Shown here: positions 2,338 through 8,713 of the stretch, piece after piece
Position numbering within the stretch: position 1 is the first letter of the stretch
Layout of the letters: every line of letters starts with the position of its first letter
NCBI RefSeq assembly: GCF_003268635.1
Contig: NZ_CP029639.1
Location: forward strand, 6,182,001 to 6,246,000
DNA: 64,000 nt
Direction of reading: 5' to 3'
Source of the DNA: Paenibacillus sp. DCT19
GTDB lineage: Bacteria; Bacillota; Bacilli; Paenibacillales; Paenibacillaceae
The notes under the pieces: model-generated
Database searches by the model: none
What the model was told of the DNA's origin: nothing
Seen by the model: only the letters and a program-made list of their open reading frames with translations
Program-made: the position numbers and the translations under genes

Positions 2338-2366
2338 TTGACCGCTGTAAAATTATAGTATTATAT
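2338..2366 (+). promoter_or_regulatory. Sigma-A-type promoter of the peptide-receptor gene
   Basis: TTGACC (2338-2343) and TTATAT (2361-2366) are separated by 17 bp in a very A/T-rich stretch, 60 bp upstream of the chosen receptor start. Spacing is ideal and the -35 box differs from consensus at one base. It is inferred from sequence only. Confidence 0.6.
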
Positions 2367-2425
2367 TTGATATAAATGGTTTTTAATACTAAATTATGGA
2401 TTTATATATAAAGGCGGTGTCTTGC

Positions 2426-3817
2426 ATGCAAACTAACACCATACGAACAGAAGTGTTGCAATACATACAAGATCATAATCTAACGCAAAGTGAGTTCTCG
2501 ACACGGGCCAATATTAATTCAGGTTCGTTCAGTAGACTCATTAATCAAAATAAACCATTCTCCATGAGCCAGCTTGACGGTATCACGAAAGCTATGGGGC
2601 TGGGAGAGGATTATTTCTATTCTCGATTTGTAGGGGAATGTTTCACACTGACCGCTCCAGATTGGCGCAGATTACGTCCCTTCCTAATCCGTTGTGCAGA
2701 AGTGGGACGTCTGGATTGTACTGAACTGATCCTGAGTAACCTGTTGGATAACACGAATTATGGAAGTTTACTTTTTGAAGTTGCGGAGGAGTTGTTTCAT
2801 AGGCAGTACAAAGACGCCGCCAAATTAATATATGAAAGTGTAAGTGTCATCGAGAAATATCAGCATTCTGAGCGTCTGGCTCTATGCCAATATCGTCTAT
2901 TCTCCCTCTCAATAAGCGATAACCTGGCATTAAATCTGCGCGCCGCTACACGATTTGAACCCTACGCGAATCGCCTGGAGGAAACCGATCAACTGGAAGC
3001 TATCAAACATCTCTCTCACGTCTATGTTTCACTGCATGAATGGCATAAGGTCGACACACTTTCCGAAGAAATGTATCGTCTCGCTTCTATTCAATATGAA
3101 CTATCACTCCATCCCAAACGCAAAACTTCGGAGTATAAGAAGCCTTTTCGACCTTTTTATTTCTATATGCTGTATGCACGCTTGCTTCAATCCGCAGTGT
3201 ATGAGCAATATGAAGATTACGAGAAAGCAATGGAATATACCCTGCTATATACCAATGCAGACGAATGGATTCGAGATACTTCTGATGAAGCTCAATTAAT
3301 TATTAGACAATTCAACGACTTTTCAACGGCTAACCAATACCTACTCCGATTATTTATGGGAGAACTGGACTATCTATCTAAATATGTCGAGTATATTGCA
3401 TCGCAACCTGATGAAATTCCGCATGCACTCTGTAATATTGTGAGAGTTGCCAACAAGTTTAATATTAATATTGATGGTATTCTGGATCGCTTCCAAGATC
3501 ATGTTCCATATAGGAAATATAATTGCGCATTTGGTGAATACAATGGACCTATTAAAGCGGATGAATATGCATCACTTTTAGTCAATCTAGCGAAATATTT
3601 CTTACAATATGATCGTGTCCTTGGGATCGATATTCTACTTGAGGGATTAGAATTTTCTGGTAGTATTAAAAGTGACTCTATAACGATTAAATGCCTTACT
3701 CTATTCAATCAATATAGAGAATTAGCAAACCATGAACAATTGAATAAATTTAATAATTTGAATAGTGAGGTGTATCTGTCACATGAAAAAAATTCTCTCA
3801 ACGCTCATTCTAAGTAG
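2426..3817 (+). CDS. RRNPP-type peptide-responsive HTH regulator (AloR/AimR-like)
   Basis: This is a cytoplasmic DNA-binding receptor predicted to be controlled by an imported signalling peptide. Residues 17-60 form an XRE-type helix-turn-helix (LTQSEFSTRANINSGSFSRL region). The remaining roughly 390 residues are helical and hydrophobically patterned, consistent with degenerate TPR repeats. The 463-residue length and layout fit the RRNPP group (PlcR, NprR, AimR, AloR). I chose ATG 2426 because AAGGCGGTG lies 6 bases before it, whereas ATG 2396 has no ribosome binding site. The 3' end overlaps a 36-codon gene for a secreted peptide, the hallmark of receptor-pheromone pairs. The target genes are unknown. 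No phage genes surround it, so a lysogeny role as in AimR is not supported. Confidence 0.8.
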   Translation: MQTNTIRTEVLQYIQDHNLTQSEFSTRANINSGSFSRLINQNKPFSMSQLDGITKAMGLGEDYFYSRFVGECFTLTAPDWRRLRPFLIRCAEVGRLDCTELILSNLLDNTNYGSLLFEVAEELFHRQYKDAAKLIYESVSVIEKYQHSERLALCQYRLFSLSISDNLALNLRAATRFEPYANRLEETDQLEAIKHLSHVYVSLHEWHKVDTLSEEMYRLASIQYELSLHPKRKTSEYKKPFRPFYFYMLYARLLQSAVYEQYEDYEKAMEYTLLYTNADEWIRDTSDEAQLIIRQFNDFSTANQYLLRLFMGELDYLSKYVEYIASQPDEIPHALCNIVRVANKFNINIDGILDRFQDHVPYRKYNCAFGEYNGPIKADEYASLLVNLAKYFLQYDRVLGIDILLEGLEFSGSIKSDSITIKCLTLFNQYRELANHEQLNKFNNLNSEVYLSHEKNSLNAHSK

Positions 3818-3893
3818 TGTACTTCTTACTGTTGATGCCCCCATATCTGAAATAATAATGAAACTTATGATACATGGTGTTGGAGGAGGATGA
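3783..3893 (+). CDS. Secreted signalling pro-peptide, 36 aa (AloP/Phr-like)
   Basis: This short gene overlaps the receptor gene by 35 bp in another frame and is preceded by AGTGAGGTG with 11-base spacing. It encodes a positively charged start (MKK), a hydrophobic secretion segment (residues 4-17, ILSTLILSSVLLTV), then a short pro-region and a Gly-rich C-terminus MIHGVGGG. In RRNPP systems the C-terminal 5-8 residues are released outside, re-imported by an oligopeptide permease and bind the receptor. The His-Gly-x-Gly-Gly pattern resembles the mature peptide SHGRGG that I recall for a P. polymyxa Alo system. Mature boundaries are unknown. The predicted partner is the receptor at 2426-3817. Confidence 0.75.
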   Translation: MKKILSTLILSSVLLTVDAPISEIIMKLMIHGVGGG

Positions 3894-3934
3894 TAACCTC
3901 TATTTATTCCATTTTAATAACACTCCCAGTACAT

Positions 3935-3968
3935 AAGGCGTCCACCAGGACGTCTTTTATTTTTTTGA
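3935..3968 (+). terminator. Rho-independent terminator of the receptor-peptide operon
   Basis: A stem AAGGCGTCC / GGACGTCTT with a 4-base loop is followed by a T-rich tract (TTTTATTTTTTT). It lies 42 bp after the peptide gene and closes the two-gene unit. Confidence 0.8.
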
Positions 3969-4084
3969 TTTTTCTTCTCTCCTGATCATTTGGCACATAC
4001 AATGTCGTGAATATGTCTATTTATACGTACATGTCCCTCAGCTTTTTGCTGCATGATCTCTTGATCGAGAGAGGAGTCTTATTG

Positions 4085-5359
4085 GTGGATATCCGACGTA
4101 ACCTCGTTTTGCTTATGCTCATTTGTTTTCTCAGTCAGATGGGCGGTTTCATGATCATCCCTCTGTTTCCTTTATTCATTGAAGAATTCGGGATGAGCGG
4201 ATGGATGATGGGCATTATTTTTGCACTCTTTTATGTCGGGAAAGTGCTGGGTGGTATCCCCTCTGCCGCTGTATATCGCAAGCTGGGGGGCAAGAAGGCT
4301 CTGATCCTCATGCTCCTGATGCTCGCTGTCTGCATGGCGGGTTTTGCTGTCTCATCTACTGCTCTGCTCTTCGGTGTATTGCGGCTGCTTCAAGGAGTCG
4401 CCTCTACGGGTCTTACAGTAGTTGTACGATCCATCATCGGAGATGAAGGCAATGTAAGCAACCGGGGTTTATATAATGGCTACATTAGCAGCAGTGAAGG
4501 CGGCGGTATGGTTCTTGGCCCCGTCATTAGTGGCTGGTTAGCATTACACTGGCCTTTATCCGTCCCTTTTTGGCTGGTTACACTCTGTTGTCTTATGGCT
4601 ATGGGTGCAGCATGGGGCATGAAGGGCAGGAGCACCACAAACCTGGGTATACAAGCAACACAAGATCTGAATACACATAACCCTTCCTCTCCTACTACAG
4701 ATACACCCCCTATCCCCACCGGTGCTACTGCATTCATAAACCCTGATCTTGATCAAAGTAACCTCCCTGACACAGATAACTCGGCACTATCGCAGAGACA
4801 ACAATTTATCGGGTATGCCACCGTTCACTTTCTTGAGATGAGTGCCTATGCTGTATTCCTAACCTACTTCGCTCTGTACGCGGCTCATATTATGCAGTGG
4901 AACCCACTCCAGACCAGTCTAGCCTTCACCGTTGCGGGTCTCTCCACACTGGCAGCAGCACCCTTTGCAGGCTATTTATCTGATCGAATGGGCGATCGTT
5001 TATTGTTATGTATGCTCGGTATGCTGATGATCGGCATTGAAGTGATTGTATTTCTGAGCACGGCATCTTATTTATGGGTATACGTGGGCATGTTAATTGG
5101 AGGCGTAGGCGGCGCATGTTATATGGATTCGTTCTTCGCACACGTCGGTGACCACATTCCAGAGAAGAATCGGAGTAACGTGATTGGAAAAATTGTGTCT
5201 GCTGCGGAGATCGGCTCCATCGTGTCTCCGATCATCGCTGCATTACTCGTGGAGTACAGCTCTCTATACGCCGTATTCGTGTTCAATCTGCTGTTGATTG
5301 CCGCCGCCATTGGGGTTCAAGCTGTCATGCGTAGCCGTTACCGAGTGCATCAAAGGTAG
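4085..5359 (+). CDS. MFS transporter
   Basis: This is an integral membrane carrier of the major facilitator superfamily, probably an exporter. About twelve hydrophobic segments are visible in two halves, separated by a polar, Thr/Pro-rich loop of roughly 50 residues. The first half contains YVGKVLGGIPSAAVYRKLGG and the second YLSDRMGDRL, both the MFS loop 2/3-type motif. An upstream in-frame ATG at 4007 has no ribosome binding site, while GAGAGGAG at 4069-4076 fits GTG 4085 (or TTG 4082), so I start there. It stands alone, with terminators on both sides. Substrate cannot be read from the sequence; drug efflux is a common role. Confidence 0.85.
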   Translation: MDIRRNLVLLMLICFLSQMGGFMIIPLFPLFIEEFGMSGWMMGIIFALFYVGKVLGGIPSAAVYRKLGGKKALILMLLMLAVCMAGFAVSSTALLFGVLRLLQGVASTGLTVVVRSIIGDEGNVSNRGLYNGYISSSEGGGMVLGPVISGWLALHWPLSVPFWLVTLCCLMAMGAAWGMKGRSTTNLGIQATQDLNTHNPSSPTTDTPPIPTGATAFINPDLDQSNLPDTDNSALSQRQQFIGYATVHFLEMSAYAVFLTYFALYAAHIMQWNPLQTSLAFTVAGLSTLAAAPFAGYLSDRMGDRLLLCMLGMLMIGIEVIVFLSTASYLWVYVGMLIGGVGGACYMDSFFAHVGDHIPEKNRSNVIGKIVSAAEIGSIVSPIIAALLVEYSSLYAVFVFNLLLIAAAIGVQAVMRSRYRVHQR

Positions 5360-7520: not shown

Positions 7521-8713
7521 TTTCGGGGATCGATCTGAATCTGATGGTAACTGCTCATCCCTAGTCGATGCAGCAGCTCCATCCTGATTGTCTAACGTAG
7601 TCTCAGCATTAGCTCCAGCTAGATTTATCACTGGATCTTGACGAAAAAAGTTCGGTTTCACAATCTCATTTCGGTATGAGCTATGGAAAATATGCGTTGT
7701 CGCGGGAGAGACAGGCGGTATGAGCCATACCCAATCCCCGTCAGCTCTCGTCCAGCCTTCTCTTCCCGTTGCTCAAATAAAGCAAACTGTGAGGCCGCTG
7801 TGTGGTGATCTACGATGCTTACGCCAGCTTTCTTGAACGAATGTAGCACAGCAACATTCAGTTCAACGAGTGCCCGATCTTTCCACAGAGTCGTCTCACT
7901 GTTCGTGCTCAGGCCTAGCGCCTTCGCCACCACAGGTAGCATGTTGTATCGGAACGTATCTGCCAAGTTACGCGCACCGATCTCCGTTCCCATATACCAG
8001 CCGTTAAATGGTGCGGCGGGATAGGATATTCCCCCAATCTCCAGCCGCATGTCAGCAATCATCGGTACACCGTACCAACGCATACCAAGCTCAGCGATTT
8101 CAGGACGTTCTGGATGCTCAATAGTGACTTCTACGATATCCTCTTCAGGTACCGGATACCACTCTGGATGTCCATCCTGAGCTTGCATAATGATGGGGAG
8201 CACATCATACGCCGTACCAGCTCCCTGCCATCCAAGCTCCATTGCAGCACGAGTTAGCTCCAGAGAAGCGGGGTCACCTACGATACCTTCGGCAGTTTCA
8301 TACCCTGCATAACGAATCAACTGATGATTCCAGATACGTACAGGTGCTCCGTGTGGTCCAGCTGGAGGAAGAATCGTGATCGTAGGTATAATTTTACCGC
8401 CATTGGAAGCCACCCGAATATGATGGAGCACGGCATCGGCAGCAGTTGCGACTGTATCTGCATGACGAGCGTCAATGATACGCAAGCTGTCCCAGAATAA
8501 TCGTCCAATACAGCGATTGCTATTACGCCATGCCATTTTGCACCCTTGTTCCAGTTCTTCTAAAGTGTGCGTATATGTGCCCTTTTCCTCGATTTCATGT
8601 TGAACAGCATTAAGCCGGGTCTCCGCGTCTTCACGCGAATAACCCAGCTCATCGTAACATCTATATATAAAGTGTTCTGCTTCTTCCTTCAATTCTCTTA
8701 GGCCTGTCCGCAT
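7503..8713 (-). CDS. nos: Bacterial nitric oxide synthase oxygenase, frameshifted near C-terminus
   Basis: This haem enzyme oxidises arginine to citrulline and NO using a partner reductase; bacterial forms lack the fused reductase. Cys68 in [11 protein letters not shown] is the proximal haem ligand, and [17 protein letters not shown] carries the arginine-binding Glu. The uninterrupted frame ends at 7658 with 26 unrelated residues. Adding one G at the C-run 7736-7739 (minus-strand GGGG) restores the expected [17 protein letters not shown] tail, which contains the pterin-site Trp, and the frame then runs to 7503. The restored protein has an unusual roughly 40-residue polar tail ending CPFAH. 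I treat the shift as a probable sequencing error. Monocistronic. Confidence 0.85.

Follow-up and report, generated by a model that had tools for sequence, protein, structure and literature searches.

A Paenibacillus AloR-AloP pair whose receptor 3' part and peptide gene appear to be one exchanged specificity cassette, with persisting peptide-less alleles

Peptide signaling through AloR receptors has been described in Paenibacillus polymyxa, where the published signal of AloR13 is SHGRGG and where expression of the gene downstream of the alo13 pair is increased by the receptor and decreased by the peptide (Voichek et al. 2020, PMC7425212, in its accessible parts). AimR and AloR have been placed in one structural clan, and PlcR and NprR in families different from that of AloR (PMC12700828, in the sections available to us); two further papers, PMC9765709 and PMC13220807, are taken from their accessible parts to concern AloR. 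An open question in quorum sensing is how a receptor and its peptide can acquire a new specificity in step, with no nonfunctional intermediate. One possible answer that can be read from sequence is that both lie on a single exchangeable piece with visible borders.

Here, a receptor-peptide pair in the one-contig, 6.67-Mb genome of Paenibacillus sp. DCT19 was analyzed; the window is the 64,000-nucleotide stretch that contains it. We consider it very likely that the locus is an AloR-AloP quorum-sensing pair in which the 3' part of the receptor gene and the peptide gene form one exchanged specificity cassette, and that peptide-less alleles of it persist. Gene content, membership of the family and the pattern of evolution are observed directly. 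The features of the locus are as follows.

2338-2367, + strand: sigma-70-like promoter, TTGACC-18-TATATT, 10/12 matches in a consensus scan
2389-2402, + strand: 5' leader element CTAAATTATGGATT, spotted by eye in alignments
2426-3817, + strand: aloR-type receptor gene, 463 aa, helix-turn-helix (HTH) plus helical-repeat domain (ATG 2426, stop 3817)
2462-2599, + strand: HTH region, residues 13-58 (Pfam match; helices in the structural model)
3181-3924, + strand: candidate specificity cassette, comprising the receptor 3' part (from about residue 252-272) and the peptide gene; borders approximate
3764-3772, + strand: Shine-Dalgarno-like AGTGAGGTG of the peptide gene, within the receptor gene, read from the sequence
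3783-3893, + strand: aloP-type pro-peptide gene, 36 aa, signal-like N-terminus (ATG 3783, stop 3893)
3870-3890, + strand: predicted mature signal IHGVGGG, length uncertain (6-8 residues), proposed from AloP13 SHGRGG and the C-termini of 77 peptides
3935-3966, + strand: terminator-like hairpin (3935-3956), then a T-run, from a sequence scan

The first-pass annotation had listed a promoter, a 463-residue receptor, a 36-codon peptide gene overlapping it by 35 bp and a terminator, and all are present at these positions. The overlap spans 3783-3817, in different frames, and the pro-peptide, MKKILSTLILSSVLLTVDAPISEIIMKLMIHGVGGG, has a KK plus hydrophobic start and ends in MIHGVGGG. The pair is followed by an MFS gene; no spo0E-like gene follows. 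Orthologues were found in 6 of 75 genomes of the genus (E values up to 1e-150). The promoter is conserved in an orthologue alignment and its pattern is present at the receptor promoter in four of the six, and an element like the one at 2389-2402 recurs before the Shine-Dalgarno sequence of many related receptors.

Two other features of the window were recorded. The element at 2002-2233, 230 bp long and bounded by perfect 19-bp terminal inverted repeats, is a MITE-like repeat: the genome holds at least 40 copies (40 scored of 154 candidates), a copy is also found in Paenibacillus sp. Root52 (L071), and Paenibacillus tundrae (L007) has an empty site consistent with TA target duplication. On the minus strand, an ORF at 7658-8713 encodes 351 aa that we take to resemble a bacterial nitric oxide synthase oxygenase domain.

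The assignment of the receptor to a family was approached by sequence and by structure. A Pfam search gave HTH_26 (E 8e-4, 20 bits, below the cut-off of 22), NCBIfam one weak irrelevant match and PHROGs weak regulator matches. The AlphaFold2 model (pLDDT 89.6, pTM 0.83) consists of HTH-like helices and an all-helical solenoid, for which the best Foldseek matches in the PDB were eukaryotic TPR proteins; NprR, Rap and AimR were among the structural matches and ranked no higher than unrelated TPR proteins, so the fold alone does not show RRNPP membership. A profile search of PDB sequences returned only HTH proteins and chance matches, and no sequence relation to PlcR or NprR emerged from a PDB search. 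Features of AloR systems that are present include an N-terminal HTH, C-terminal TPR-like repeats in the model, and a downstream short ORF with a putative secretion signal, of 36 aa here and 32-50 aa in AloR-AloP.

The more specific evidence came from P. brasilensis, whose AloR13 orthologue, compared in place of AloR13 of strain ATCC 842, is 32.2% identical to the window receptor over 453 columns (query 3-449 of 463, E 9e-72), values within the rule by which AloR is named in the accessible part of PMC10075063. This orthologue was recognized by its peptide ending in SSHGRGG and its neighboring spo0E-like ORF, the latter named from reading the protein and not from a search, and was located with a looser coding pattern; an HGRGG coding pattern had given only frames unrelated to alo in 17 genus genomes. 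The 32% identity and the HGxG peptide end support the first-pass proposal of an RRNPP receptor-pheromone pair resembling the P. polymyxa Alo systems. By these comparisons the pair is assigned to AloR-AloP, a known RRNPP subfamily of the Paenibacillaceae, as a further member.

Relatives are concentrated in the genus. A protein search returned 384, and among the 120 listed the names are nearly all Paenibacillus, the exceptions being a compost metagenome and a Salmonella label. The latter (P0014), a partial receptor with 76% identity, comes from a 1.8-kb contig labeled Salmonella enterica and is probably contamination. Bacillus sp. FJAT-27264 (L043) is a non-Paenibacillus name among the related loci. 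The type strain of P. polymyxa, ATCC 842, carries on a plasmid a receptor 37.6% identical to that of the window; the product of the short gene downstream of this receptor is signal-like but lacks HG. Eight receptor matches, fragments included, were counted in P. polymyxa ISL-58 (L055). Relatives also occur in 35 plasmid records and in one phage record, Brevibacillus phage SecTim467 (L180, 65001-71290), whose receptor is 27% identical, is preceded by an annotated Spo0E-like gene and has behind it an overlapping 45-aa ORF that is not signal-peptide-like. A mobile origin was considered for the window locus and set aside: the locus is chromosomal and has the same neighbors in its orthologues.

The first-pass annotation had proposed collecting Paenibacillus homologues and looking for a short signal-peptide ORF at the 3' end of each. 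Among 78 distinct loci, representing the best 80 of 200 relative-encoding places in one scan of species genomes, 56 have an ATG-initiated signal-like ORF of 25-60 aa at the receptor end, the signal being judged by a home-made hydrophobicity rule and not by SignalP, and in 49 this ORF carries HGxG inside its last 14 residues. On the reverse strand of the same segments the counts were 5/78 and 0/78, and in dinucleotide shuffles 6.7% and 0/1,560. In L057, L060, L061, L062, L066 and L069 HGxG lies further in, which brings the total to 55/78 under a looser rule that was not applied to the shuffles. The most frequent start position lies 38 bp ahead of the last base of the receptor stop codon. As for the remaining loci, the ORF of L038 begins beyond the limits of the scanned segment, peptide ORFs lie further downstream in L035, remnants are found in L008, L050 and L055, the receptor frame of L036 stops early, and the others have none. 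All four intact receptors found in the window genome have an HGxG peptide.

These counts bear on the reading that the short ORF is a chance frame within or behind the receptor gene. It is indeed short, overlaps another gene and, in searches with the 36-aa peptide, matches no NCBIfam or PHROG family. Set against the shuffles, which produced no HGxG ending, and a pN/pS of 0.45 in the non-overlapping codons of the peptide gene (54 non-independent pairs of peptides with 60% identity or more), this reading is scarcely credible. In 73 of 77 distinct peptides, all chosen for HG, a G stands two places after HG, and in 68 the segment that begins with H and runs to the C-terminus has 5 or 6 residues.

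The pattern of divergence along the locus was examined against the orthologue of Paenibacillus sp. Root52. The 5' flank is identical at 902/925 positions, the receptor 5' part (2426-3160) at 682/735, the 3' part (3161-3814), where 49 further bases are gapped, at 431/605, and the 3' flank (3925-5356) at 1322/1431. In percentages, this amounts to 93-98% for the promoter and the 5' part of the receptor, 71% for its 3' part and 92% past the peptide gene. The two receptor parts differ with a Fisher p of 5e-26. The max-chi2 statistic reached 120.7 at 3239 (residue 272), compared with values of 24.9 or below in 2,000 codon permutations, and 30-bp windows place the border at ∼3181-3240. On its 5' and 3' sides, respectively, dS is 0.29 and 1.87 and dN 0.025 and 0.222, with the split set at residue 245 after the profile had been seen; such a jump in dS is not expected from selection on the protein alone. 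Root52 lacks the peptide gene, and the comparison is therefore one of a peptide-bearing with a peptide-less allele. A similar increase was observed between G021 and G041 (dS from 0.14 to 0.60), and the window protein is 94-97% identical to P0003, P0004 and P0007 over residues 1-245 and 62-72% over residues 246-445. The cassette interval listed above was drawn from the identity profile against Root52, the max-chi2 maximum, the dS jump and the same pattern at a second alo locus.

This second locus (L121, G000:C1:405500-414500; peptide end IHGTGDL) offers a larger sample. The promoter pattern of the paralogue, which lies at 405.7 kb, was found in 48 of 75 genomes with at most 3 mismatches, as compared with 0/75 for the reversed control. 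The window genome and 20 of the other 47 were compared, 12 being chosen for two copies, and in 21/21 a peptide with HG near its end is present. Close pairs were defined by an author-chosen cut-off (pS <0.45 in residues 1-245), which retained 36 of 210; pairs share genomes and are non-independent. Peptides were called different when at most 5 of the last 7 residues were alike. In the 26 different-peptide close pairs, mean pN is 0.002-0.011 and pS 0.10-0.34 up to residue 200, and 0.23-0.40 and 0.69-0.89, respectively, over residues 201-440. By contrast, pS in the 10 close pairs sharing a peptide end goes from 0.12-0.31 to 0.07-0.14. The C half has the higher pS in 25/26 different-peptide pairs, one pair showing no rise, vs 1/10 same-peptide pairs. 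The borders are sharper in these 21 genomes than at the window locus. In G056/G058, for example, identity is 95-99% to residue 200, 55-63% thereafter, 51% in the peptide, 40% in the next 60 bp and then 90-99%. When all 210 pairs are taken, the correlation of peptide identity is no stronger for the C half (rho -0.36) than for the N half (-0.40); as a proxy, peptide identity fails to separate the halves, and the contrast is limited to the 36 close pairs.

A profile of this kind might also be produced if the receptor 3' part and the peptide had diverged in place through rapid social or positive selection, without recombination. Diversifying selection is expected in the peptide-binding part, and in some different-peptide pairs, e.g. 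G006/G043, pN is raised and pS is not. Divergence in place is nevertheless judged unlikely, given that synonymous divergence jumps together with the 3' part, that pS is lower in the C than in the N half of 9/10 same-peptide pairs, and that identity regains the flank level past the peptide gene at the window locus and in three of the five different-peptide pairs profiled (not in G034/G064 or G001/G003). The trees of the two halves also conflict, with the caveat that both groups were picked after looking: four THGGAGL genomes are grouped with full support in the C tree, a group rejected by the N data (AU p 0.0185), and the C data reject four rows adjacent in the N tree (p 1e-61).

Of the pairs that the 80 receptors of the wider set can form, 59 are close in residues 1-200 (pS <0.5); some of these jump and many do not. 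Jumps are seen in L012/L018 (0.09 to 0.77), L038/L039, L015/L019, L019/L031 and L023/L024, and in L012/L018 the 3' part differs while the peptide end is nearly identical. Overall, we regard it as probable that the receptor 3' part and aloP are swapped as one cassette by homologous recombination, with the promoter, HTH and first helices staying near-constant. This reading includes a fixed locus at which peptide-less cassettes spread as well and at which one regulatory output would be coupled to a new private signal in one step.

Among the six orthologue genomes, the peptide gene is intact in two, those of the window and G021, and broken or missing in four, through three kinds of loss. A deletion has removed it from G034 and G064, which agree in the receptor end and the junction; that of G041 has a frame-shift in an A-run; and that of G006 has lost its start, the C-terminal coding end still being readable. 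The first-pass annotation had counted homologues without a short ORF as evidence against the pair. Such homologues do occur, in these four genomes, and to that extent its expectation failed; it held in the wider set, where 55/78 loci keep a peptide ORF, and the four losses are for this reason read as repeated loss. Peptide-less receptors nevertheless appear to be retained: between L071 and L007, dN is 0.064 and dS 0.556, a ratio of 0.11, which points to continuing constraint on the receptor. In P. polymyxa, aloR5, aloR14 and aloR18 set precedents for peptides that are absent or degenerate (PMC7425212, accessible parts).

The same losses, the purifying selection on the receptor and the published precedents would also suit a window receptor that acts as a peptide-independent regulator, its peptide gene being a relic left open by chance in this strain. 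We hold this to be improbable. The window peptide gene is complete, with a signal-like start, a Shine-Dalgarno sequence and an HGxG end, as it is in G021 and in P. campinasensis (L076), whose receptor is 62% identical and whose peptide gene is intact. Between the window and G021, 8.0 of 17.7 synonymous and 14.0 of 48.3 non-synonymous sites differ in peptide codons 15-36, a sign of weak constraint. The persistence of peptide-less alleles with a conserved receptor, as part of the AloR-AloP reading, is supported by comparison.

A candidate operator was sought in the receptor promoters. Of 78 related receptors, 42 have TTGACCnn[TC]G[GT] in the 190 bp upstream of them, vs 12 of 3,900 shuffles, with 11 matches in 1.09 million bases elsewhere in the same loci; it is absent upstream of the other 36. 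The -35 element and spacer of the window promoter, TTGACC..TGTAAAATT, may accordingly be viewed as a candidate AloR operator and, we infer, the likeliest binding site. The orthologue promoter pattern, searched with at most 3 mismatches, matched only receptor promoters, in four of six genomes, with no second site; a stricter pattern had no match, and a looser one with 2 mismatches gave 5 matches in the window genome vs 3 in the reversed control. For the window receptor no target beyond possible autoregulation is supported by these searches. Nor was a near copy of the aloR13 promoter found at spo0E (up to 6/24 mismatches). Given the 36 loci without the operator, its absence from spo0E and the lack of a second site, both the direction and the target of regulation are stated here conditionally, as what we infer.

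At the second alo locus, the promoter is identical in 28/30 bases to that of an ABC-2-like transporter operon at 411.2 kb, 5.5 kb beyond the receptor locus. This operon is a candidate AloR target, and the identity suggested an operator common to AloR and its target. The transporter follows the second promoter copy in G000, G034, G035 and G064. As a general rule the idea was rejected, since elsewhere the second copy mostly precedes a tandem second aloR. When 61 loci were scanned for a second copy of their own promoter, L025 (3 mismatches) and L020 (5) had one and the rest were at background. Tandem aloR genes (L160-L179) with ∼50% protein identity and nearly identical 30-bp promoters were observed in many of the genomes fetched, and one tandem copy in the window genome (L124, G000:C1:5999626-6000989) is split into two frames and hence broken.

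The observations can be accommodated by the following model. A single promoter would drive both the receptor and the 36-aa pro-peptide, the start of which lies inside the last codons of the receptor gene. By homology, the pro-peptide would be exported and trimmed to its C-terminal 6-8 residues (approximately IHGVGGG); after re-import through an oligopeptide permease, this peptide would bind in the helical-repeat groove of the receptor and alter DNA binding. By analogy with AloR13 the mature peptide would switch the receptor off, and the receptor may bind its own promoter at the candidate operator. Different cassettes would have been recombined onto a near-constant promoter-plus-HTH half. Natural chimeras with the same HTH half and a different sensing half and peptide would be suited to tests of specificity, crosstalk and peptide-less cheating. 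The comparison also yields 77 distinct predicted Alo peptides around an HG core (selected for HG).

In comparison with AloR13-AloP13, the window pair has a homologous receptor, the same receptor-then-peptide order and an HG-rich peptide end (SHGRGG vs IHGVGGG; PMC7425212, accessible parts), but an MFS gene stands here where spo0E stands there, and the aloR13 promoter spacer differs. The accessible parts of PMC7425212, PMC10075063 and PMC12700828 contain nothing on recombination or pherotype exchange for Alo, and as far as the literature searched reaches, cassette exchange is an undescribed property of the family. AimR-AimP (arbitrium, of Bacillus phages) likewise pairs an RRNPP receptor, built of an HTH and helical repeats, with a peptide gene behind it. 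PlcR-PapR and NprR-NprX of the Bacillus cereus group share a transcription-factor receptor and an imported C-terminal peptide (partly PMC7425212, accessible parts).

Rap-Phr of the Bacillus subtilis group also has its peptide gene behind the receptor, and the diversification of its pairs has been studied in detail; there, recombination of Rap homologues was sought and not found, the authors reporting no evidence of divergence by recombination (PMC5199041, in its accessible parts), whereas a cassette pattern is seen in Alo. If the exchange proposed here is true, a regulatory output can be rewired to a new private signal in one step, a route not found for Rap-Phr. In ComQXP and agr, which use membrane histidine kinases, pherotype polymorphism takes the form of a signal gene and sensing part that vary together while the output part stays constant, and ComRS of Streptococcus suis reportedly has transferable pherotypes. 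In Alo, unlike ComQXP and agr, the border lies inside a cytoplasmic DNA-binding receptor.
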